This document shows, in pieces, positions 8,177-35,260 of a stretch of DNA of 35,495 bases. The stretch comes from Coriobacteriia bacterium (GTDB taxonomy: Bacteria > Actinomycetota > Coriobacteriia > Coriobacteriales > Atopobiaceae). Location of the stretch: NCBI GenBank assembly GCA_030530145.1, contig JAUMVN010000024.1, forward strand, positions 1-35,495. Direction: 5' to 3'. Within the stretch, counting starts at the first letter, position 1, and each line of letters starts with the position of its first letter. The notes beneath the pieces are model-generated. The model was not told the origin of the DNA, did no database searches, and worked only from the letters and a program-made list of their open reading frames with translations. Made by a program: the position numbers and the translations under genes.

Positions 8177-9106
8177 ATGAGCAAGAGGGCACGGGGAGTC
8201 GTTGCGGGCGTTTCGGGCGCGTGCTTCTGGGGCATCTCGAATGTATTCATCAATTTCTTGACTAATAACTACAGCGTCGCAGCCTCTTGGATCGGTTGCT
8301 TCCGCGTGCTCGTCGCCGGGCTCGTCTTCATCGCGATCTGCCTCGCGACCTGCAGAGAGAGGCTCCTCGCGATGCTGCGCGACCGCCGCGCCATGGTCGG
8401 CGTCGTGCTCTTCGCCGTGCTCGGCATCGCCGTCTACCAGATCAGCTACATCATGGCCATCGGCAGCACGAACGCCTCGACCGAGGCCCTGCTCACCCAG
8501 CTGAGCCTCATCTACATCATGGTCTATACCTGCGCCCGCGACCGGCGCGCCCCGATGGCCGCGGAGCTTTTCGGCCTCGCGCTGGCGCTCATCGGCGTCT
8601 TCTGCATCGCCACCAAGGGAGACCCCGCCGCGCTCGTCGTCGGCCTCGCCGGCCTCGGCTGGTGCCTGCTCGACGGCATGCTCGGGTTCCTCCACAACAC
8701 GCTGCCGCTCTACGCGCTCGACCGCTACGGATCGCTCTCGGTCAATGCTGTGGGCATGTCGCTCGGCGGCCTGCTCCTGATCCCGATCGCGCAGCCCTGG
8801 GCCGGCGCGCCGGCCTTCGACGGCATCGGGTGGGCCGCGTTCGGCGCCACGACCCTCTTCGGCGCGATCCTCGGCTACCTGCTCGCCATGCAGGGCCTCA
8901 AGGACTCCGGCCCCATGCTGGGCAGCCTCCTGCTCGTGTTCACCCCCATTGTGGCCACCCTCGCCAGCGCGGCGCTTCTCGGCACGGCCATCACGGCCTT
9001 CGACCTCATCGGCCTCGTCTGCATCGTCGCGATGATGGTCGTCATGTCCCTCGCGAAGAAGGAACCGCAAGAGACCGGAGAGGGCTACGTACACGAGACC
9101 GCGTAA
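8177..9106 (+). CDS. EamA/DMT-family transporter
   Basis: 309 residues with about ten hydrophobic segments in two homologous halves, as in EamA (drug/metabolite transporter) permeases. The first half begins GVVAGVSGACFWGISNVFINFL; the second half has GLAGLGWCLLDGMLG and GAILGYLLAMQGLKDSGPMLG, followed by the terminal helix LIGLVCIVAMMVV. Family members export or import amino acids and other small metabolites across the cytoplasmic membrane; the substrate here is unknown. GGGAGG at 8163-8168 precedes the ATG. It is divergently paired with the LysR regulator. Confidence 0.9.
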   Translation: MSKRARGVVAGVSGACFWGISNVFINFLTNNYSVAASWIGCFRVLVAGLVFIAICLATCRERLLAMLRDRRAMVGVVLFAVLGIAVYQISYIMAIGSTNASTEALLTQLSLIYIMVYTCARDRRAPMAAELFGLALALIGVFCIATKGDPAALVVGLAGLGWCLLDGMLGFLHNTLPLYALDRYGSLSVNAVGMSLGGLLLIPIAQPWAGAPAFDGIGWAAFGATTLFGAILGYLLAMQGLKDSGPMLGSLLLVFTPIVATLASAALLGTAITAFDLIGLVCIVAMMVVMSLAKKEPQETGEGYVHETA

Positions 9107-9121
9107 CACACCTCGCCTGTG

Positions 9122-9225
9122 CCCTGGCAAGAGGCCCTCCCGGCCCATCTCATTGCTCAGCGCTCGCTGCGCTCGCTCGCTTACGCGATTCGCATGAGAT
9201 GGGACGGGCGCGCTTCCCGGCAGGG
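9122..9225. repeat. long imperfect hairpin with conserved core (element pair, copy 1)
   Basis: Arms 9122-9153 and 9194-9225 pair over 32 positions with about seven mismatches; the inner ten (CCCATCTCAT/ATGAGATGGG) are perfect. The 40-nt loop (9154-9193) begins TGCTCAGCGCTCGCT and ends CGCGATTCGC. It is the reverse complement, apart from 3 substitutions and one short indel region, of the loop of the neighbouring hairpin at 9248-9368, whereas the arms of the two are unrelated. It lies in the convergent gap between the EamA gene and htpG and could also terminate both. Confidence 0.75.
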
Positions 9226-9247
9226 GCGCTTCTCTTTATTGGATTTC

Positions 9248-9368
9248 GCCCCTCAGTGCGCCGGAAAAGGCCGCGCCCCGAATCTCACGCGAATCGCGCA
9301 GCGAGCGAGCAAAGCGAGCGCTGAGCAGTGAGGTTCGGGGCGCGGCCTTTTCCGGCGCGCTGAGGGGC
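9248..9368. repeat. long near-perfect hairpin with conserved core (element pair, copy 2)
   Basis: Arms 9248-9288 and 9328-9368 are 41 nt each and complementary at every position except two that would form G-U pairs. The 39-nt loop (9289-9327) is the inverted counterpart of the loop at 9154-9193. The hairpin ends 8 nt before the htpG stop codon. It may serve as a terminator for htpG, but it is far longer than a terminator needs to be. Confidence 0.8.
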
Positions 9369-11565: not shown

Positions 11566-11790
11566 TGCGAGGTTTTGCCCTTCGTGCGACGTATGGCGGA
11601 CCTTGTTGCAAGGTTTTGCCCTTCGTGCGACGTAGATATCGAACGTTGCGAAACCGGGACATCGGCTTACCTGGGCTTTCTCGCCCGCACCGCCCCCAAT
11701 TCGGCCTCTAAAGACAACTTCAACGTCGCACGAAGGGCAAAACCTTGCAAGCCCCTGGCGGTTACGCCGCACGAGGGGCAAAACCTTGCA
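11566..11790. repeat. mirrored cluster of four 27-nt repeats
   Basis: Four copies of one 27-nt sequence (core GGTTTTGCCC-TTCGTGCG). Two are direct at 11566-11592 and 11607-11633; two are inverted at 11723-11749 and 11764-11790. The spacing inside each pair is 14 nt, so the layout is symmetrical around an 89-nt centre. The copies at 11607 and 11723 are exact reverse complements; the outer two differ by one and two bases. The cluster resembles a REP/BIME-type or MITE-type element. It fills most of the 392-nt gap between htpG and the gene ending at 11796, where I see no coding sequence. Confidence 0.8.
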
Positions 11791-11795
11791 AGGCG

Positions 11796-13297: not shown

Positions 13298-14968
13298 ATG
13301 GCGGACCTCCACGACATAGACAAGATCCTCGAGCAGCTGCTCTCCGACCCGCGCCTCACGCGAGGCCGCGCCTTCCAGACGTCGAAAGCCTACTCGGACG
13401 AGCCCATCATCCGACGCGGATCGCAGATGCACGGCTTCGTCCCCGAACCGATCAAGCAGCTGCGCGCCCTGCAGCTGACCCCGACGGGCCGCACGTGGTC
13501 GGAATCGCGGCTCTTCTTCGAACAGGCCAGGCTCCTCGAGGATTTCGAGGACCATGCCCCCTTCGTGGGGCAGTTCCTCTCCTACTACCCGACCTACCGC
13601 TCCATGAACGACCGCCAGCTCCGCGGCTACTTTACCTGGCGCACGAACGTGCGGCGCGGGCAGGTGGAGGATGTCTCGACGTCGTTTGCCTACGTGTACC
13701 TCTACGAGCTGCTCATGGGCGTGGGCGTCGAGCCCGGAGAGAAGGGCTTTGCCGCCATCGAGGCGTTCTACAAGGCCTACCGTGCCTTCGACCAGGCGAG
13801 CATGGACCGCAATGTCCGCCCCTGGCTCGTCGACTACGTGGTCGACCACGGTCTCGACCCCAAGCTCGCGGCGCCCTATGTGAACGCGGCGCACGATGAT
13901 GCCATAGCGCTGCTCGCGGGCATCGAGCGCGCGGCGATTCTTTCCGCCCCGCCCAAGGGCTCGCGAAAGACAGCGCTCGACTTCGGAACGCTCGGGGAAG
14001 CGGCCCAGAAGCTCATGGGAGCCGCGGCCGAGCTCTCGTCTTACCGTGTGCTCGAATCGCGCCTTTATAAGGAAGCACCCGAGGACTTCGGGGTCGCCCT
14101 GTGCGCGGTGTTCATCCGGCTCTCGCGCCACTATGCCCGCACGCACAACCAAGGCCTGGTCGAGACGCTCTTCGGAACGAGATTCCGCGTGCGCCACCTT
14201 ATGTACGCATCGGCCATCCACTACGAGCCCGCGCCCCACCCCGATTGCGTGTACGAGCTCTCGCCGACGCGCACCTACATTTGCAAGAGCGGGCTGTGGT
14301 CCTGCGAGGGTTTCCACGACGGCGGCGGGAAGAGCGCCAAGCTCGGCGATATCTGCCGCGCGGTCGACCGGCAGCTGCGGGCGGCGACCGGCTTCCCGGC
14401 GCAGCTCAAGGACCATGCCGAGCCAAAATACCTCGCCAAGATGATCGACGCGGAGATCGAGGACCTTCTTGCCTGGAAAGAGGCGCATAAGCCGGTCGTC
14501 GTCGACATCGACCTGTCCAAGCTCGCGGGGATCCGGTCGGCGGCGGCGGTGACGCAGGAGGCGCTGCTGGTGGATGAGGAGCGGGAGCAGGGTCAGGGCT
14601 CGCCGGCGGAGCTGTCTTCATGCTCAAACAGTCCTGATTCGCACGAACGTGACATTAAGTCACGTTCGGCTCATGCGGAACTGCGCGTGAAGATAGCTCC
14701 GCCGGCGAGCCCTGACCCTGCTCCAAGCGCAAAGCCTGACAAAGAATCATTCCCCTACGGGCTCTCGCAAGAGGAGGTTGAGCTGCTTGGGGCGCTGCTC
14801 GCCGGCGAGGTGCCGTCCACGGGCGGATCGGTTGACCTGATGGTTGACTCGATCAATGAGAAGCTCTTCGAGCTGCTGGGGGATACGGCGGTAGAGTTCG
14901 GCGGCGATGGGGCGCCACGGGTTGTGGAGGACTACGTCGACGATGTTCGCGGGGCGCTCAGAAGATAG
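13298..14968 (+). CDS. TerB-N/TerB-C domain protein with in-frame palindromic insert
   Basis: 556 residues. The N-terminal half matches the TerB-N domain: APFVGQFLSYYPTYRSMNDRQ, then GYFTWRTNVRRG and AYVYLYELLMGVG. The centre contains the PTRTYICKSGLWSCEG and AKLGDICRAVDRQL segments, and the C-terminus (from about residue 490) looks like TerB-C (LSQEEVELLGALLAGE, EKLFELLGDTAVEF). Such proteins occur with DUF2791/BrxD ATPases and Lhr-like helicases in putative defence or stress modules, and exactly those genes follow here. Residues about 430-475 are a linker encoded by a 141-nt palindromic element (14584-14724) that also occurs in the helicase gene. It starts 15 nt after DUF554. Biochemical function is unknown. 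Confidence 0.82.
   Translation: MADLHDIDKILEQLLSDPRLTRGRAFQTSKAYSDEPIIRRGSQMHGFVPEPIKQLRALQLTPTGRTWSESRLFFEQARLLEDFEDHAPFVGQFLSYYPTYRSMNDRQLRGYFTWRTNVRRGQVEDVSTSFAYVYLYELLMGVGVEPGEKGFAAIEAFYKAYRAFDQASMDRNVRPWLVDYVVDHGLDPKLAAPYVNAAHDDAIALLAGIERAAILSAPPKGSRKTALDFGTLGEAAQKLMGAAAELSSYRVLESRLYKEAPEDFGVALCAVFIRLSRHYARTHNQGLVETLFGTRFRVRHLMYASAIHYEPAPHPDCVYELSPTRTYICKSGLWSCEGFHDGGGKSAKLGDICRAVDRQLRAATGFPAQLKDHAEPKYLAKMIDAEIEDLLAWKEAHKPVVVDIDLSKLAGIRSAAAVTQEALLVDEEREQGQGSPAELSSCSNSPDSHERDIKSRSAHAELRVKIAPPASPDPAPSAKPDKESFPYGLSQEEVELLGALLAGEVPSTGGSVDLMVDSINEKLFELLGDTAVEFGGDGAPRVVEDYVDDVRGALRR
14584..14724 (+). mobile_element. protein-coding palindromic element, copy 1
   Basis: Arms 14584-14620 and 14688-14724 (37 nt each) are complementary at all positions except one G-T pair. 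They enclose a 67-nt core, 14621-14687, which starts TGCTCAAACA and ends CGGAACTGCGCG. The core has an inner hairpin: CGAACGTGAC (14644-14653), loop ATTAA, GTCACGTTCG (14659-14668). The 141-nt total is 47 codons, and the TerB frame passes through it, encoding CSNSPDS, then DIKSRSAHAELRV. The core is 60/67 identical to the one at 18709-18775, while the arms are unrelated. I infer an inserted element of the Rickettsia-palindromic-element style. Confidence 0.85.
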
Positions 14969-15022
14969 GCGCACATTAAGGCTCTTTGAACTAGAACAAG
15001 TGTTTTATTTGTCACATTTTCG

Positions 15023-15031
15023 TGCTAGCAT
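15023..15031 (+). promoter_or_regulatory. extended -10 promoter candidate for the BrxD-like gene
   Basis: TGCTAGCAT is an extended -10 (TG-n-TAGCAT), 33 nt before the ATG at 15064. The -35 region (TTTTAT, 15003-15008) is poor. The 95-nt AT-richer gap after the TerB gene supports a separate promoter. Confidence 0.35.
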
Positions 15032-15063
15032 GGGCCCATACAGATCAGCTGAGAGGAACGCCC

Positions 15064-16389
15064 ATGCCCGAACCTACGCCGGCACAGAAGACGCGCGTGC
15101 CCAAGCGCATCGCCGCGGTGATCATCAATTCGCTCAAGGGCGGCGTCGTGCCGCGCATTGGGCTGCCGTACATCACCGTCGGCCGCGAGCGCGAGATCGA
15201 GGCGCTGCTGCACGACCTGGCGCTCGTGGCAGATGGTGGCGCGAGTTTCCGCTTTCTCGTGGGCCGCTACGGCGCGGGTAAATCGTTCCTCCTCCAGACC
15301 ATCCGCACGCACGCCATGGGGCGCGACTTCGTTGTCGCCGATGCCGACCTCTCGCCCGAGCGCCGCCTGCAGGGCAACCAAGGCCAGGGCCTCGCCACGT
15401 ACAAGGAGCTTATCCGCAACCTGAGCACGAAGACCCGCCCCGAGGGCGGCGCGCTGCCGCTCGTGCTCGAGCGCTGGGCGCGCAACCTCTCCGAGGGCGC
15501 CACAGACCCCATGGTCCCGCTCAAGGCCGCGCTCTCCCCCATCCGCGAGCTCGTCCACGGCTTCGATTTCTGTCGCGTGCTCGAGGCTTACTACGCCGCC
15601 TACCTGGAGGGCGACGAGGAACGCCAGGCCTGCTGCGCCAAGTGGCTGCGCGGCGAGTACCGGACCAAGACCGAGTCAAAGGCCGAGCTCGGCATCAACG
15701 CCTGCATCGGCGACGACGACTGGTACGAGTACCTCAAGCTCTTCGCGGAGTTCCTCGTCGGCGCCGGCTACCAGGGGCTCATTGTGCTCGTGGACGAGCT
15801 CGTCAACCTCTACAAGATCCCGAACTCCATCACGCGCCAGTACAACTACGAGAAGATCCTCACCATGTACAACGACACGCTCCAGGGCAAGGCGCACCAC
15901 CTGGGCATCATCATGGGCGGAACGCCGCAGTCCATCGAGGACCGCCGCCGCGGCGTGTTCAGCTACGAGGCCCTGCGCAGCCGCCTCACGCAGGGGCGCT
16001 TTGCCTCCGAGGGCATGACGGACATGCTCGCGCCCGTTATCAACCTGAACCCGCTCACCTACGAGGAGCTGCTTGTCCTCACCGAGAAGCTCGCCGACAT
16101 CCACGCCGGCTATTTCGGCTACGAACGCCGCCTGGAGACCGGCGACCTCGTGAGCTTCCTCCAAGTCGAGTTCGGCCGCGTGGGCGCGGACTCCCACCTC
16201 ACGCCGCGCGAGGTCATCCGCGACTTCATCGAGCTGCTCGACATCCTCTACCAGAACCCGGACGCGGACGTTGCGAAGCTGCTACAGTCCGGGGACTTCT
16301 CCCTCAGCGCGGCTAACGTGAACAACACAGGCGCGAACGGGAGCGCGAATCCCGACGTGGCCCCGCAGTTCGCCGAGTTTACGATCTAG
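15064..16389 (+). CDS. BrxD-like P-loop ATPase (DUF2791 family)
   Basis: 441 residues from the ATG at 15064, preceded by GAGAGGA. The first block, RIAAVIINSLKGGVVPRIGLP, then YITVGREREIEALL, is characteristic of BREX-type ATP-binding proteins (BrxD, DUF2791). Walker A is VGRYGAGKSFLLQ (about residues 66-78) and Walker B is GLIVLVDELVNLY; a sensor-like segment GIIMGGTPQSIEDRRRG follows. In type 2 BREX loci BrxD is encoded beside the Lhr-like helicase BrxHI; here the helicase follows after one permease gene and a TerB protein precedes. No PglX, PglZ or BrxC/PglY is visible, so this is not a canonical BREX locus. It is probably a DNA- or helicase-partner ATPase; the exact role is inference. Confidence 0.82.
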   Translation: MPEPTPAQKTRVPKRIAAVIINSLKGGVVPRIGLPYITVGREREIEALLHDLALVADGGASFRFLVGRYGAGKSFLLQTIRTHAMGRDFVVADADLSPERRLQGNQGQGLATYKELIRNLSTKTRPEGGALPLVLERWARNLSEGATDPMVPLKAALSPIRELVHGFDFCRVLEAYYAAYLEGDEERQACCAKWLRGEYRTKTESKAELGINACIGDDDWYEYLKLFAEFLVGAGYQGLIVLVDELVNLYKIPNSITRQYNYEKILTMYNDTLQGKAHHLGIIMGGTPQSIEDRRRGVFSYEALRSRLTQGRFASEGMTDMLAPVINLNPLTYEELLVLTEKLADIHAGYFGYERRLETGDLVSFLQVEFGRVGADSHLTPREVIRDFIELLDILYQNPDADVAKLLQSGDFSLSAANVNNTGANGSANPDVAPQFAEFTI

Positions 16390-16400
16390 GGGAGAAGCGC

Positions 16401-17906
16401 ATGGCGCAAGCGGCAACCGGGCATAGCGCAATCGGTAAGGGCGAGAAGATAAAACGCGACGAGGCGGCCACCGGCAACGAGGCGAACACCCTCGGCTTCA
16501 CCGGTCTCACCACGCTCGTCGTGACCACCTGCGTGGGCGCGGGCATCTTCTCGCTGGCGGGCGACCTCGCCGCGGGCGGCGCGAACACCGCGGCGGTGCT
16601 CGCCGGCTGGGCAATCTGCTTCGTGGGCGCCTTCGCCCTGGCCAAGACGTTCAGCGGCTTGGCGGCCGTGCGGCCCGAGCTCTCCGGCGGCATCTACGCA
16701 TACGCGCACGCCGGCTTCGGGGAGTACGTGGGGTTCTCCGCCGCCTGGGGCTACTGGATGAGCGCGTGCCTGAACAACGCCGGCTACGCCATCATGCTCT
16801 TCAACGCGCTCTCGTACTTCTTCCCGCAGCTCGGAGGAGGCAGCACGCCCGTGTCCATCGCGCTGGCGTCGTGCTTCCTCTGGCTCATCGCTTGGCTCCT
16901 CACCCGCGGCGTTCGTCTGGCCACGGGCGTCAACCTGGTGATTACGCTCGCCAAGCTGGTCCCGCTCGCGCTCTTCATCCTCTGCGTCGTGCTGCTCACG
17001 CGCTTCGACCCGGCCGTCTTCGCCCAGAACTTCTGGGGAGAGGCCGGCGGCCCCTCCTTCATGGAGCAGCTGCGCTCGACGATGATCTCGCTCGTGTGGC
17101 TCTTCGTGGGGCTCGAGGGCGCCGTCGTGGTGTCCGGCCGCGCCCGCGACCCGCGCGACGTGAGCCGCGCCACCACGTTCGGCTTCGTGCTCGTCGTGGT
17201 CTTCTACGTGCTTATCTCGGTCCTCTCGCTCGGCATCCTCCCGCGCGAGCAGCTCGCCGCCCTCTCCACGCCGTCGCTCGCGGGCGTGTTCGAGCAGGTC
17301 ATCGGGCCTGCAGGCGCCGTCCTCGTCAACGGGGGCGTGGTCGTCTCGCTCATGGGGACAATGCTCGGCTACCTTACCTTCGCCGCCGAGACCTCCTACC
17401 AGGCGGCCTCGCGTGGGCTTCTTCCCAGCGCCCTGGCGGCAACCGACGCGAGCGGCACCGCCGTGAGGACGACTCTCGTCTCGGCCGGCATCACCCAGGC
17501 GTTCCTCGTGCTCTCGCTTTTCTCGCAGGGCACCTACCAGTTCTTCTACACCTGCTCGGTCTACGCCATCCTCATCCCCTACACCTGCGCCGCCGCCTAC
17601 TACGCGCGCGCCGCCTGGAAGGCCGATCGCATCGAGGGCCCGCTCGCCCCGGGCCTCGCCTCGGCGCGCATCGCCGGCACCGTCGCCCTCCTATACACGC
17701 TGTTCCTCATCTGGTCGAGCGGTCTCAAGGGCCTCACGGTCGTTGCCATCGCCATCGCGCCGGGGACCATCCTCTACGCGATCATGCGCGCCAGCCACAA
17801 GGATGCGCTTCTCCCCTCCGCCGCGGACAAGGCCTTCGCCGCCATCGTCGCCTGCGCCGTCGCGGCGACCGTCGTCGTCAACGCGCTGCCCGCGTTCGGA
17901 ATCTAG
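16401..17906 (+). CDS. APC-superfamily amino acid permease (basic amino acid/antiporter type)
   Basis: 501 residues with about 12-13 membrane segments. The first helix region, GFTGLTTLVVTTCVGAGIFS, contains the GAGIF substrate motif of APC transporters, and GLAAVRPELSGGIYAYAHAG follows. Later blocks, MISLVWLFVGLEGAVVVSGR and YQAASRGLLPSALA, resemble the ArcD-like arginine/ornithine antiporter subgroup; the substrate is not proven. GGGGAGAAG precedes the ATG, 11 nt after the BrxD-like stop, and the helicase starts 7 nt after its own stop, so it is embedded in that operon. A transporter is unexpected there. The gene looks intact and has the same base composition as its neighbours. Confidence 0.9.
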   Translation: MAQAATGHSAIGKGEKIKRDEAATGNEANTLGFTGLTTLVVTTCVGAGIFSLAGDLAAGGANTAAVLAGWAICFVGAFALAKTFSGLAAVRPELSGGIYAYAHAGFGEYVGFSAAWGYWMSACLNNAGYAIMLFNALSYFFPQLGGGSTPVSIALASCFLWLIAWLLTRGVRLATGVNLVITLAKLVPLALFILCVVLLTRFDPAVFAQNFWGEAGGPSFMEQLRSTMISLVWLFVGLEGAVVVSGRARDPRDVSRATTFGFVLVVVFYVLISVLSLGILPREQLAALSTPSLAGVFEQVIGPAGAVLVNGGVVVSLMGTMLGYLTFAAETSYQAASRGLLPSALAATDASGTAVRTTLVSAGITQAFLVLSLFSQGTYQFFYTCSVYAILIPYTCAAAYYARAAWKADRIEGPLAPGLASARIAGTVALLYTLFLIWSSGLKGLTVVAIAIAPGTILYAIMRASHKDALLPSAADKAFAAIVACAVAATVVVNALPAFGI

Positions 17907-17913
17907 GCCAGCC

Positions 17914-20286
17914 ATGAGCGTCTTCGGCCGATACGCCCCCTTTATCCAGGACTTCATTTACGACCACGAGTGGGAGAGCCTGCGCGGCGTACAGGTGGCC
18001 GCCGGCGAGGCGATCTTCAACACAGACGACCACGTGCTTCTCACCGCCCAGACCGCGTCGGGCAAGACCGAGGCCGCCTTCTTCCCCATCCTCACCGAGT
18101 TCTGGGAAGACCCGCCCGCCAGCGTCGGCGCCATCTACATCGGCCCCACGAAGGCCCTGATCAACGACCAGTTCTACCGCCTCACGGACCTCTGCGACGA
18201 GGCCCACATCCCCGTGTGGCACTGGCACGGCGATGTCTCAGCCTCGCACAAGGCCAAGCTCATGAAGAAGCCCTCGGGCGTGCTGCAGCTCACGCCCGAG
18301 TCGCTCGAGGCCATCCTCATGCGCCGGCACTCGGCCGTGGCCAAGCTGTTCTGCGATCTGCGCTACGTCGTCATCGACGAGGTCCACTCCCTGCTGCGCG
18401 GCGACCGCGGAGGGCAGTGCCTCTGCCTTATCGAGCGCCTTTCCCGCATGGCGGGCGTCGAGCCGCGCCGCATCGGCCTTTCCGCGACCATCGGCGACCC
18501 AGAGCGCGTCGGCGCGTTTCTTGCCGCCGGCACCAGCCGCAAGACGATCGTCCCGCGCATCGAGGAGCCCCCGCGCACGTGGCGCTTGAGCATGGAGCAC
18601 TTCTACACCACCGGCCCGCAGGCGCCGGAATCACTGCTCAGGTCGCGAGAAGGGGTGGAAGCGCAGGTCATTTCCGTGCAGCAGGAGGGGCCCAAGGGCT
18701 TATTTCCATGCTCAAACAATCCTGACTCGCGCGAAGGCGACATTAAGTCGCCTTCGGCTCATGCGGAACTGCGCGTGGAGATAAGCCCTTGGGCCCCTTC
18801 CGAGCCCGAAACCGATACGGCGCCAGTTAATGCCGACCCCGGCATCGGCTACATCTTCGAGCACACCCGCGGCAAGAAATGCCTCGTGTTCACGAACTCG
18901 CGCGAGGAGGCCGAGGACGTCTGCACCGTGCTGCGCGCCTACTGCGAGAAGAACGGCGAGCCCGACCGGTTCCTGATCCACCACGGCAACCTCTCGGCTT
19001 CGATCCGCGAGTCCGCCGAGGAGCTCATGCGCGACGAGGCCAACGACCTCTCCATCGTCGCCACGGCTACGCTCGAGCTCGGAATCGACGTCGGGCGCCT
19101 TAACCGCGCGTTCCAGATCGACGCGCCCTTTACCGTGTCGGGCTTCCTGCAGCGCATGGGCCGCACGGGCCGGCGCGACGAGCCGCCCGAGATGTGGTTC
19201 GTCATGCGCGAGGACCAGCCCGAGGCCCGCGCCCTCACGCCGGAGACCATCCCCTGGAAGCTGCTGCAGGGCATCGCCCTCGTGCAGCTTTACCGAGAAG
19301 AGCACTGGGTCGAGCCGCCGCGGCTGGACCGCCTGCCGTACAGCCTGCTCTGCCACCAGACGCTGGCGATTCTTGCCAGCGAGGGAGAGCTTTCGGCGGC
19401 GCAGCTCGCCACGCGCGTGCTCACGCTCACGTATTTCCACCGGGTGAGCATCGACGACTTCCGCGAGCTGCTGCGCTTCATGCTCGCGCAGGACTACATC
19501 GAGCAGACCGAGACGGGCGGCCTTATCGTCGGGCTCGCCGGCGAGCGCGTGACGAACAATTACAAGTTCTATGCCGTCTTCCAGGAGAACGTCGAGTACA
19601 CCGTGCGCTGCGACTCGCAGGAGATAGGCACGCTCGTGGCGCCACCGCCCCCGGGCGAGAAGGTCGCCATCGCCGGGCACGTCTGGATCGTGGAGGAGGT
19701 GGACCACAAGCGCCACCTGCTCTATGTCACGCAGGTCAAAGGGCGCGTGCCGGCCTACTTCGGCGAGTGCCCGGGAGACATCAACACCCGCGTCCTCGAG
19801 CGCATGCGTCAGGCTCTGGACGAGCATGTCCCCTATCCCTACCTGCAGGAAAACGCACGCGCACGGCTCGCACAGGCACGGCACGTGGCGGCCAACGGCG
19901 GGCTCACGAAGTCCCCTCTCGTGAGCCTCGGCGGCAACATGTGGTGCCTCTTGCCATGGCTCGGCAGCTACGCGTTCCTCGCGCTCGAGCGCCTGCTCAA
20001 GATCAAGTGCGCCAAGGAGCTGGGCCTCAAGGGTCTCGACTCCTCGCGGCCGTACTACATGACCTTCATCATGGCGCCGGAGGTCGACGAGAAGGCTTTC
20101 TACACCGTAGTGGCAAACGAGGCCGAGGCGCTCACCGACCCGATGGAGCTCATCTACCCCGGCGAGGTCCCCACCTTCGAGAAGTACGACGAGCTCGTGC
20201 CGGAGCTTCTCGTCCGCAAGGGCTTCGCCGAGGGCACCCTCGACATCGCCGGTATGCAGGCCCGCGTAGCCCAGTGGGCGCGATGA
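17914..20286 (+). CDS. Lhr-like DEAD/DEAH helicase (BrxHI-like) with in-frame palindromic insert
   Basis: 790 residues from the ATG at 17914, with no clear ribosome binding site, so it is probably coupled to the permease stop 7 nt upstream. SF2 motifs: Walker A TAQTASGKTEA (residues 44-54), YIGPTKALINDQ, the DEVH box (155-158), GLSATIGDPE (188-196), then in the second RecA domain LVFTNSREEAEDVC, TATLELGIDVG and QRMGRTGRR. The C-terminal half is of the Lhr/YprA-like type. It belongs with COG1201-type helicases; BrxHI is the BREX member. Residues about 258-295, between the two RecA domains, are encoded by a palindromic element (18686-18798) also found in the TerB gene. It is predicted to act on DNA, possibly in phage defence. 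Confidence 0.85.
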   Translation: MSVFGRYAPFIQDFIYDHEWESLRGVQVAAGEAIFNTDDHVLLTAQTASGKTEAAFFPILTEFWEDPPASVGAIYIGPTKALINDQFYRLTDLCDEAHIPVWHWHGDVSASHKAKLMKKPSGVLQLTPESLEAILMRRHSAVAKLFCDLRYVVIDEVHSLLRGDRGGQCLCLIERLSRMAGVEPRRIGLSATIGDPERVGAFLAAGTSRKTIVPRIEEPPRTWRLSMEHFYTTGPQAPESLLRSREGVEAQVISVQQEGPKGLFPCSNNPDSREGDIKSPSAHAELRVEISPWAPSEPETDTAPVNADPGIGYIFEHTRGKKCLVFTNSREEAEDVCTVLRAYCEKNGEPDRFLIHHGNLSASIRESAEELMRDEANDLSIVATATLELGIDVGRLNRAFQIDAPFTVSGFLQRMGRTGRRDEPPEMWFVMREDQPEARALTPETIPWKLLQGIALVQLYREEHWVEPPRLDRLPYSLLCHQTLAILASEGELSAAQLATRVLTLTYFHRVSIDDFRELLRFMLAQDYIEQTETGGLIVGLAGERVTNNYKFYAVFQENVEYTVRCDSQEIGTLVAPPPPGEKVAIAGHVWIVEEVDHKRHLLYVTQVKGRVPAYFGECPGDINTRVLERMRQALDEHVPYPYLQENARARLAQARHVAANGGLTKSPLVSLGGNMWCLLPWLGSYAFLALERLLKIKCAKELGLKGLDSSRPYYMTFIMAPEVDEKAFYTVVANEAEALTDPMELIYPGEVPTFEKYDELVPELLVRKGFAEGTLDIAGMQARVAQWAR
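18686..18798 (+). mobile_element. protein-coding palindromic element, copy 2
   Basis: Arms 18686-18708 and 18776-18798 (23 nt each; one G/T-type mismatch) enclose a 67-nt core, 18709-18775. The core shares both ends and 60 of 67 positions with the core at 14621-14687. The inner hairpin is CGAAGGCGAC, loop ATTAA, GTCGCCTTCG. The core is read in the same frame as copy 1 and encodes CSNNPDS, then DIKSPSAHAELRV. The arms (GGGCCCAAGGGCTTAT and its complement) have nothing in common with those of copy 1. The exact outer boundary is uncertain, because the pairing fades at the GGA/TCC ends. Confidence 0.85.
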
Positions 20287-20410
20287 TGCGGGGGAGCGCG
20301 CAGCTGCCAAGCCAAGGCAGAGGTGTATGCCCACGATTGGCGGCAGGCCGAATAACGCGGGTTGTTATCCCATAGATGGCGCACAATGGAGGCCTGCAGA
20401 AAGGGGCCCC

Positions 20411-22306
20411 ATGACCGCAGCGACGCCGCAACCGCTCGACATACTCCGCCGGACCTTCGGCTACGAGAGCTTCCGCCCGCACCAGGCGGAGATTGTCGGC
20501 GCCGCTCTCGCGGGGCGAGACGTGCTCGGCGTCATGCCGACCTCAGCTGGCAAGTCGATCTGCTACCAGGTCCCCGCCATCGCGCTTGCGCAGGCGTCGG
20601 TCGGGCTCACGGTGGTCGTCTCTCCCCTGATCTCCCTCATGGCCGACCAGGTGGGCGCGCTTCGCCAGTGCGGCGTGGCCGCGAGTTGCCTGAACTCGAC
20701 GCTTTCCGCCGGCGAGCAGGCCGACGTGCTCCACGGCATCGCTTCCGGCGCGCTCACCCTGGTCTACGTGGCACCGGAGCGCCTCGACGACCCCCGTTTC
20801 CTCGACGTGGCGACCGCGCGCGGCGTAGCGCTTCTCGCCGTCGACGAGGCGCACTGCATCAGCCAGTGGGGCAACGACTTCAGGCCTTCTTACCAGCGAA
20901 TCATTGAGTTCATCCGAGCGCTTCCGGCGCGCCCGCCCGTCATGGCGCTCACCGCCACGGCCACGCTCAGGGTCCGCGAGGACATCGCCGGCTCGCTCGG
21001 ACTCGTCGACCCCTTCTGCGTGGTCGCGAGCTTCGACCGCCCGAACCTCGCCTTCAGCGTCGAGCGGCCGCAGAACGGCGCCGATAAGGATCGCCACCTG
21101 CTGCGCTTCTGCCAGGCACGCGAGGACCGCAGCGGCATCGTCTACTGCTCGAGCCGCCGCGCCGTCGAGGAGGTCTGCGATTACCTGTGCAGCCATGGGC
21201 TTCTTGCCACGCGCTACCACGCCGGCCTTTCCGCCGAGGAGCGAGACCGCAACCAGGACGACTTTCTCTACGACCGCTCACGCATCATGGTCGCCACGAA
21301 CGCTTTCGGCATGGGCATCGACAAGTCGAACGTGAGCTACGTGGCCCACTACAACCTGCCGAGCTGCTTGGAGAACTACTACCAGGAGGCGGGGCGCGCC
21401 GGGCGCGACGGCACCAAGGCCGAGTGCGTGCTCTTCTACTCCCCCGGCGACGTCCACACACAGGAGTTCCTGATCTCGCGCACGACGCGCGAGGACCTGA
21501 GCGCCGAGGAGCTCGACGAGCTGCGCGAGCAGGACGAGAAGCGCCTGCGCCAGATGGTCTTCTACGCCACCACCACCGACTGCCTGCGCTCCTTCATACT
21601 GCGCTACTTCGGCGAGGAGGCGCCGGCCTACTGCGGCAACTGCGGGAACTGCCTCGCCGAGTTCGAGGAGATCGACGCGACCACTGACGCGCTCAAGATC
21701 GTGAGCTGCGTGGCGCGCCTCGCCCAGCGTCGACGCAGCGTCGGCGCGGCGACCATCGTGGACATCCTGCGCGGCTCACGCGCCGAGAAGATCCTCTCGT
21801 CCGGGTTCGACCAGCTCAGCACCTACGGCATCATGGCCGAGGTTCCCGTGCCGCGCATCCGTTCGCTCATCGACGAGCTCGTCTACCGCGGGCTCCTGGC
21901 GCGCGCGGCCGGCAAGTTCCCCACGATCTCGCTCACGGACGACGGCGTTGCGTTCATGCGCTCGCGCACGGTGAACGGAGAGCCGCTGGTCGTCAAAGTC
22001 GCCAAAGGCAAGCCGCGGCCGAAAAAGGCCGAACGGTCAACCGGCTCCGGCGCCACGACGAGGAGCGCCGCGATCGCGGACGTGTCCGAGGTCGACCAGA
22101 ACCTCTACCAGCGCCTTGCCAACCTGCGCGCCGAGCTTGCGCGGGAGCAGCAGGTGCCGGCGTACTTCATCTTCAGCAACGCGACGCTGGCAGACATGTG
22201 CGCTAAGCACCCCACGACCAAGGAAGAGTTCCTCGAGGTCTCCGGCGTCGGCGCGAAGAAGGCCGAGGCCTACGCCGACGTCTTCCTCGCCGCGCTCGCT
22301 GGGTGA
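20411..22306 (+). CDS. recQ: RecQ-family ATP-dependent DNA helicase
   Basis: 631 residues from the ATG at 20411 (AAAGGGG upstream); an in-frame upstream start at 20327 has no site. Motifs: LRRTFGYESFRPHQAEI (RecQ motif 0), Walker A MPTSAGKSICYQ, DEAHCISQWGNDFRPSY (DEAH plus the RecQ aromatic-rich loop), ALTATAT, and motif VI QEAGRAGRDG. A zinc-binding CGNCGNC segment and winged helix follow, and the C-terminus (about 570-631) is an HRDC domain (LRAELAREQQVPAYFIFSNATL). RecQ unwinds 3'-5' for recombinational repair and fork restart. It follows the BrxHI-like gene by 124 nt on the same strand and may have its own promoter. Confidence 0.95.
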   Translation: MTAATPQPLDILRRTFGYESFRPHQAEIVGAALAGRDVLGVMPTSAGKSICYQVPAIALAQASVGLTVVVSPLISLMADQVGALRQCGVAASCLNSTLSAGEQADVLHGIASGALTLVYVAPERLDDPRFLDVATARGVALLAVDEAHCISQWGNDFRPSYQRIIEFIRALPARPPVMALTATATLRVREDIAGSLGLVDPFCVVASFDRPNLAFSVERPQNGADKDRHLLRFCQAREDRSGIVYCSSRRAVEEVCDYLCSHGLLATRYHAGLSAEERDRNQDDFLYDRSRIMVATNAFGMGIDKSNVSYVAHYNLPSCLENYYQEAGRAGRDGTKAECVLFYSPGDVHTQEFLISRTTREDLSAEELDELREQDEKRLRQMVFYATTTDCLRSFILRYFGEEAPAYCGNCGNCLAEFEEIDATTDALKIVSCVARLAQRRRSVGAATIVDILRGSRAEKILSSGFDQLSTYGIMAEVPVPRIRSLIDELVYRGLLARAAGKFPTISLTDDGVAFMRSRTVNGEPLVVKVAKGKPRPKKAERSTGSGATTRSAAIADVSEVDQNLYQRLANLRAELAREQQVPAYFIFSNATLADMCAKHPTTKEEFLEVSGVGAKKAEAYADVFLAALAG

Positions 22307-34980: not shown

Positions 34981-35090
34981 GCCACAAGAAGCCGGCAGGC
35001 ATCGCGTGAGCAGCGCCTAAACCGCTTCAATCAAAAAATCAGACGTAATCCCCGCGCCAAAACGGGCCCAACGATTAGGTACAGCACACG

Positions 35091-35228
35091 AACTCTGACT
35101 TTTCGCACTTTAAAATCAGCATTGGCACTGTATGACGGGAACAACAAGCCCTGCCAACTGGGCAAACGCTATCGAAAATCATCGGGCTAATCATCAGAGC
35201 CAATTTCAAAGTGCGAAAAGTCAGAGTT
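35091..35228. repeat. 138-bp element with perfect 21-bp inverted ends
   Basis: The 21-nt sequence at 35091-35111 (AACTCTGACTTTTCGC, then ACTTT) is repeated exactly, inverted, at 35208-35228. The 96-nt interior has no credible ORF but contains a further nested pair, ATTGGC and GCCAAT, near its two ends. It looks like a MITE, an IS remnant or a structured RNA locus; I cannot tell which. It occupies the 337-nt gap after pdxT, together with the terminator at 35261. No direct target duplication is obvious. Confidence 0.75.
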
Positions 35229-35260
35229 TGCGTCTTCCAGCCCCGCATAGAGCCAAAATG

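Follow-up and report, generated by a model that had tools for sequence, protein, structure and literature searches.

The closest described systems are the REP/REPIN sequences with their RAYT transposases (PMC3116915) and their GTAG and CGTC families (PMC3733652): short, mostly intergenic palindromic repeats that are amplified unevenly between relatives, sometimes lie inside genes and often form inverted pairs. REPs keep a stem of 5–13 bp and an end tag, while their loops are mostly short; RPE-4 and RPE-6 have been equated with CGTC repeats (PMC3733652). A second body of work concerns template switching at quasipalindromes, which homogenises the arms and inverts the spacer (PMC8604942) and gives rise to multi-base compensatory changes (PMC8794818). 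Intrinsic (Rho-independent) terminators are GC-rich hairpins found soon after stop codons; where two genes converge, each has its own. Rickettsia palindromic elements are palindromes that stand in frame in genes.

The hairpins reported here resemble each of these systems in part. We call them a new repeat family in which the usual REP pattern is inverted: the tip is conserved, whereas the stem, mostly 20–43 bp, is mostly not, and neither a tag nor a flanking transposase was found. Arm homogenisation, paired multi-base changes and spacer inversion recall the quasipalindrome studies, but those dealt with single sites, and the spacers of the yeast study were short, whereas here a dispersed repeat family carries a conserved spacer of ~38 nt. 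Compared with intrinsic terminators, the stems are far longer, the tip is long and conserved, the U-tract is usually missing, and hairpins also occur within coding sequence and 5' leaders. The tips fall into classes A, AB and B; class B lies in frame in a TerB and a helicase gene, as Rickettsia elements do in protein genes, but its stems vary between copies, and sequence and host are unrelated. A narrow search of the open-access literature found no such repeats reported for Olsenella, Atopobium or Coriobacteria. We consider it reasonably probable that this is an Atopobiaceae repeat family with a conserved tip on an inverted repeat, whose arms would be kept complementary by template switching at the DNA level.

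Two hairpins between a transporter gene and htpG

The window, which is the whole stretch of 35,495 nucleotides that was analysed, contains two hairpins in a 269-bp intergenic region where an EamA-type transporter gene and htpG converge:

8177–9106, + strand: EamA-family transporter gene (Pfam PF00892, E 3.6e-23), upstream neighbour of hairpin 1
9122–9153, + strand: hairpin 1, 5' arm, beginning 15 nt past the stop codon of the transporter gene
9155–9193, + strand: hairpin 1, class A tip of 39 nt, matched by pattern and covariance model
9194–9225, + strand: hairpin 1, 3' arm
9248–9288, − strand: hairpin 2, 3' arm
9289–9326, − strand: hairpin 2, class A tip of 38 nt, matched by pattern and covariance model
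9328–9368, − strand: hairpin 2, 5' arm as read on the htpG strand, shortly downstream of the htpG stop codon
9376–11439, − strand: htpG (HSP90), convergent, upstream of hairpin 2 on the strand of that hairpin (Pfam PF00183, E 1.4e-108)

The tip common to both hairpins measures 38–39 nt (GCTCRGCGCTCRCTNYGYTCGCTCRCTNCGYGAYTCGC). Both tips have the same sense when each is read with its own upstream gene, and the pair therefore represents one element in two copies facing inward. Our measurements agree with an earlier note on this DNA, which had described loops that are reverse complements of each other (33 nt matched, at 91%), about seven mismatches in the first stem (7 over arms of 32 nt, complementarity 78%) and a near-perfect second stem. 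The 41-nt arms of the latter are 95% complementary, with only two departures, read as G.T on the + strand and as C.A on the opposite strand. Hairpin 2 has an inverted-repeat score of 35; when the window was dinucleotide-shuffled 60 times, no inverted repeat within 130 nt scored above 15.

The loop recurs in this and sister genomes, as the same note had anticipated, with complementary flanks that are individual to each copy; it is not confined to this site, and the same stems were not found elsewhere. The class A tip pattern has 15 copies in this genome (reversed-pattern control, 0), each strict-pattern copy with its own arms, which are 25–43 bp long in most copies and in many are perfect. It was matched in 20 of 140 Atopobiaceae genomes, with the highest count, 49, in G074. 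When one genome per species was scanned across 84,980 species, only seven stretches matched the pattern, all of them labelled Atopobiaceae, Coriobacteriaceae, Olsenella or Thermophilibacter provencensis. A covariance model found 25 copies in this genome (G000), 80 in its relative G074, 5 in G001, the only genome of the same genus in the comparison, and 5–11 in each of six genomes of a Thermophilibacter-type related genus; two genomes of the order outside Atopobiaceae gave 0 and 1 (marginal) matches. Amplification of the hairpin elements is lineage-specific. Identity with a known RNA family was rejected: Rfam gave no match in the window at gathering score, and a permissive search returned mostly generic long-hairpin (miRNA) matches under the cut-off, plus a tRNA in one locus.

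Other repeats were seen as well. Shortly upstream of htpG, at 11566–11795, lie several GGTTTTGCCCTTCGTGCGACG-like repeat copies in inverted pairs with arms of 27–31 nt, and at 35086–35233 there is a 31-nt inverted repeat of another kind, around TCTGACTTTTCGCACTTT, interrupted by a spacer of 86 nt. Among the 9-mers in 53 kb of G001 (L169–L185), GGCGAGAAG/CTTCTCGCC exceeds expectation the most (29 seen, 4.3 expected); it is also raised in the window (11 against 2.6) and in a sister genus. It occurs within and between genes, its inverted pairs make the inner stems of hairpins, and its density and placement resemble those of a DNA uptake sequence.

A covarying tip on individual arms

Nearly all the variability of 19 ungapped class A tips lies in three covarying base pairs, which are A-T or G-C, in the middles of two triloops and in one Y that adjoins a triloop. 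The tip is a three-way junction composed of GC/GC, a TC/TC mismatch pair and R-Y, followed by two small hairpins. For the tip pairs alone, a larger set gave AT 46, GC 7 and AA 2 at 5-34, GC 25, AT 27 and GT 3 at 12-18, and GC 23, AT 31 and GT 1 at 25-31. When arms and tip are taken together, 95% of cells are paired, double-changed cells number 69 as against 20 in shuffles, and covariation is 0.473 as against 0.157.

On the complementary strand, the mismatches of the tip read as tandem G.A and the triloops as GNA. A DNA hairpin with a GAA loop, d(GCGAAGC), has been described as extraordinarily stable (PMC6582339). We infer that the active form may be the complementary strand in its DNA form. 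For the class A tip, computed single-strand folding energies did not beat those of shuffles, for either strand and as RNA or DNA; they neither support nor exclude this active form and carry no weight here. Folded as RNA, the complementary strand resembles the covariation structure, whereas the sense strand does not; the few wobbles within the tip (G.T 4, A.C 0) hint slightly at RNA of the sense strand.

The stems, which the earlier note held to be unrelated, are so in their outer parts: from position 13 to 24 outward, the likeness between copies was reached in 46 of 200 shuffles, and the outer arms are no closer than shuffled sequence. The innermost ~10 bp are weakly shared, with a degenerate CTTCTCTTCAY motif common to 16 copies in this genome, a likeness reached in 0 of 200 shuffles.

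Selection on the arms to pair as RNA would be expected to tolerate G.U more readily than A.C. In tip orientation, the arm mismatches were G.T 34 and A.C 37 for class A (1757 pairs) and G.T 44 and A.C 61 for class AB (2157 pairs), thus 78 against 98 over the 3914 arm pairs of both classes, with no preference for G.U. Moreover, orthologous hairpins of related species showed 146 double Watson-Crick changes against 80 single ones over all pairs, which are not independent, and 30 against 16 when the first pair of each orthologue group alone was counted; for example, the ratio was 7 to 0 in L212/L213 and 9 to 0 in L113/L116. At one intergenic site, G112 and G097 (L139 and L140) carry 34-nt loops that are exact reverse complements, on arms that differ by one base; this is the single case of loop inversion. 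The missing G.U preference, the excess of paired changes and this exact inversion are signatures of template switching at inverted repeats, and because of them the arms appear to be maintained at the DNA level, apparently by copying between arms during DNA replication. Since arms that are corrected against each other carry no date in their perfection, mismatch number would not measure age, and we do not retain the suggestion that the two hairpins of the window differ in age.

Exchange of tips and the sister classes

Past the 3' end of one conserved gene, which we name leuC-like from its location (in some species the reading frame immediately downstream is leuD-like), the hairpin differs among sister species: it bears a class A tip, a shortened A, AB, a B-like tip or just a short plain loop, on stems that are mostly recognisably related despite the different tips. 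Given that tips are swapped on related stems at orthologous sites, the tip behaves as an exchangeable, amplifying module. In G104 and G100, which over the query share 98% identity with G099, the hairpin ends in a short loop, whereas A is present there in G099, G083 and G094; the class A tip was probably lost in G104 and G100, because G083 and G094, which are less similar to G099 over the query, keep it. Between G000 and G001, 10 of 11 orthologous 3' ends have A in G000 only, and the eleventh site, which precedes a hisF-like gene, has homologous tips on unrelated stems in the two genomes. The comparison with empty sites proposed in the earlier note yielded no clean insertion: at orthologous sites in relatives a different tip or a short loop caps a related stem, a pattern that resembles replacement or loss of the tip and not precise insertion. 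Across species, with one genome for each, the comparison revealed no enzyme and no transposition event, nor any clean pair of an empty and a filled site.

A 46-nt form of the tip occurs in 25 of the 25 parsed long-class copies of G074 and was not seen elsewhere; in the same genome some hairpins sit inside others and arm-plus-tip units are duplicated in tandem, and together these observations indicate that tips are copied within a genome. The tandem units of L083, L085, L087, L091 and L096 consist of a 5' arm and a tip, with a single 3' arm at the end, while other loci of G074 have hairpins nested in an older degenerate tip, with a near-constant arm length of ~29 bp.

Class AB (GCTCARACAG-stem-AACTSGC) is present in 64 of 140 family genomes, with up to 19 copies per genome and reversed-pattern controls near zero. 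Its arms are individual in the 91 copies examined, and in the Thermophilibacter-type genus many copies have the same inner stem, GGTCCGGC/GGCGGACC, in which a G.G mismatch is constant. Exact copies of class B number three across the family and are confined to this genome; one follows a gene and two stand in frame in genes:

14584–14724, + strand: class B hairpin with 43-nt arms in the TerB-domain gene, tip starting GCTCAAACAGTCCTGATTCGC at 14622
18686–18798, + strand: class B hairpin with 29-nt arms in the DEAD/DEAH helicase gene, tip starting at 18710

The inner stems of these two hairpins covary (CGAACGTGAC/GTCACGTTCG vs CGAAGGCGAC/GTCGCCTTCG), and their outer arms are unrelated. In the TerB gene, class B lies in a linker of variable length and is missing from the closest relatives among aligned homologues; in the helicase gene it falls in a gapped, poorly alignable stretch relative to a Paenibacillus homologue. 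B-like tips are also present at the leuC-like site in two other genomes, and a search of this genome for an autonomous version, using the left end alone with ≤3 mismatches, returned the same three copies only. The two in-frame hairpins encode like peptides, SNSPDSHERDIKS and SNNPDSREGDIKS. Their host genes belong to a row at 13298–22303 that comprises TerB-domain, BrxC/BrxD ATPase, amino acid permease-like, DEAD helicase and RecQ reading frames. On two Paenibacillus plasmids, TerB and helicase homologues lie near each other, with an ATP-binding protein gene beside the helicase; because of this neighbourhood, the row is probably a defence-type cassette.

Competing readings and a proposed route of spread

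With gene calls around the loci taken from a simple codon score, a same-strand gene precedes 12 of 14 resolved copies in this genome (P = 0.006, one-sided), and in 11 of them the tip lies 44–58 nt past the stop codon in gene sense, a placement that is not universal in the copies of other genomes. The position after same-strand genes suggests a transcript-level role or transcription-linked entry, and 3'-end placement fits a 3'-end role or simple tolerance. The hairpins could accordingly be read as 3'-end RNA elements, i.e., terminators or stability hairpins with a protein-bound tip and stems that drift by ordinary compensatory mutation, a reading also favoured by the convergent pairs, by the covariation of the tip and by a mild enrichment of T after the 3' arm in this genome (fraction 0.28, against 0.15 before the 5' arm). 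It competes poorly with the balance of mismatches in the arms, where G.U is not in excess over A.C, and the conserved TC/TC mismatches suit the complementary strand better, as tandem G.A. We place it second, as an unlikely explanation, because TTT directly follows the hairpin in just 12 of 144 copies (0 of 16 in this genome) and because some copies lie within coding sequence or, in the opposite sense, in 5' leaders; at one site, moreover, the element is inverted.

Less likely still is membership of the REP/REPIN family, in which case the hairpins would be non-autonomous single-strand DNA elements moved by a Y1 (RAYT/TnpA-REP) transposase with specificity for the folded tip. Lineage-specific amplification would suit such elements, as would the G.A pairs and GNA triloops of the complementary strand, a kind of loop very stable in DNA (PMC6582339), and Y1 transposase genes of RAYT size are present in 5 of 5 genomes checked. 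However, the 1.5 kb on each side of the eight Y1 genes examined (8 of 12 Y1 matches) contain no long-armed hairpin of class A or AB, and RAYT mobilisation was rejected on this ground. The stems, moreover, are not conserved, and a constant tag is missing: within 8 nt 5' of the arm, GTAG was found in 6 and CGTC in 10 of 144 copies, and each in 2 in a control stretch. Other palindromes lie near 5 of the 8 Y1 genes, 3 of them of GGGACAGTCCC type; at L101, L102 and L108, perfect palindromes of this type occur within 1.5 kb of Y1/RAYT-sized genes and are possibly the REP partners of these Atopobiaceae genes. Finally, inverted repeats can arise through amplification or assembly errors, but an assembly artefact or chance palindromes have a negligible chance of explaining hairpins that are conserved across species, with a score far beyond shuffles, matching gene positions in many separately assembled species and a covarying tip.

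The comparisons demonstrate that the tip is structured and conserved, that the outer arms are unrelated, that changes in the arms are paired, that a loop was inverted in one case, that tips are swapped at orthologous sites and that amplification is lineage-specific. For the repeat family with arms kept complementary by template switching, we propose that the tip with ~10 bp of inner stem would be copied into another hairpin, either by ectopic template switching via inner-stem homology or by an enzyme recognising the folded tip. The arms would then drift freely, because the partner arm would receive each mutation by copying; the tip, not being such an inverted repeat, would be kept by selection or by its own copying. 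Elements would accumulate at gene 3' ends because hairpins pre-exist there and a longer hairpin is tolerated. More tentatively, the tip itself may be mobile, as a ~40-nt folded motif of single-stranded DNA, a three-way junction that shows GNA triloops and tandem G.A mismatches when read on the complementary strand; this motif would spread between hairpins through an undescribed enzyme or replication process and replace the resident loop, leaving the arms to the host.

In repeated palindromes the stem is usually conserved and the loop free, a rule that this family reverses, and it offers many natural sites in close relatives at which the concerted evolution of arms, the inversion of loops and their replacement can be followed. 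When a perfect stem shows paired changes, this is normally taken as proof of selection on RNA. The missing G.U bias suggests that such covariation can stem from DNA replication, which calls for caution in bacterial RNA discovery.
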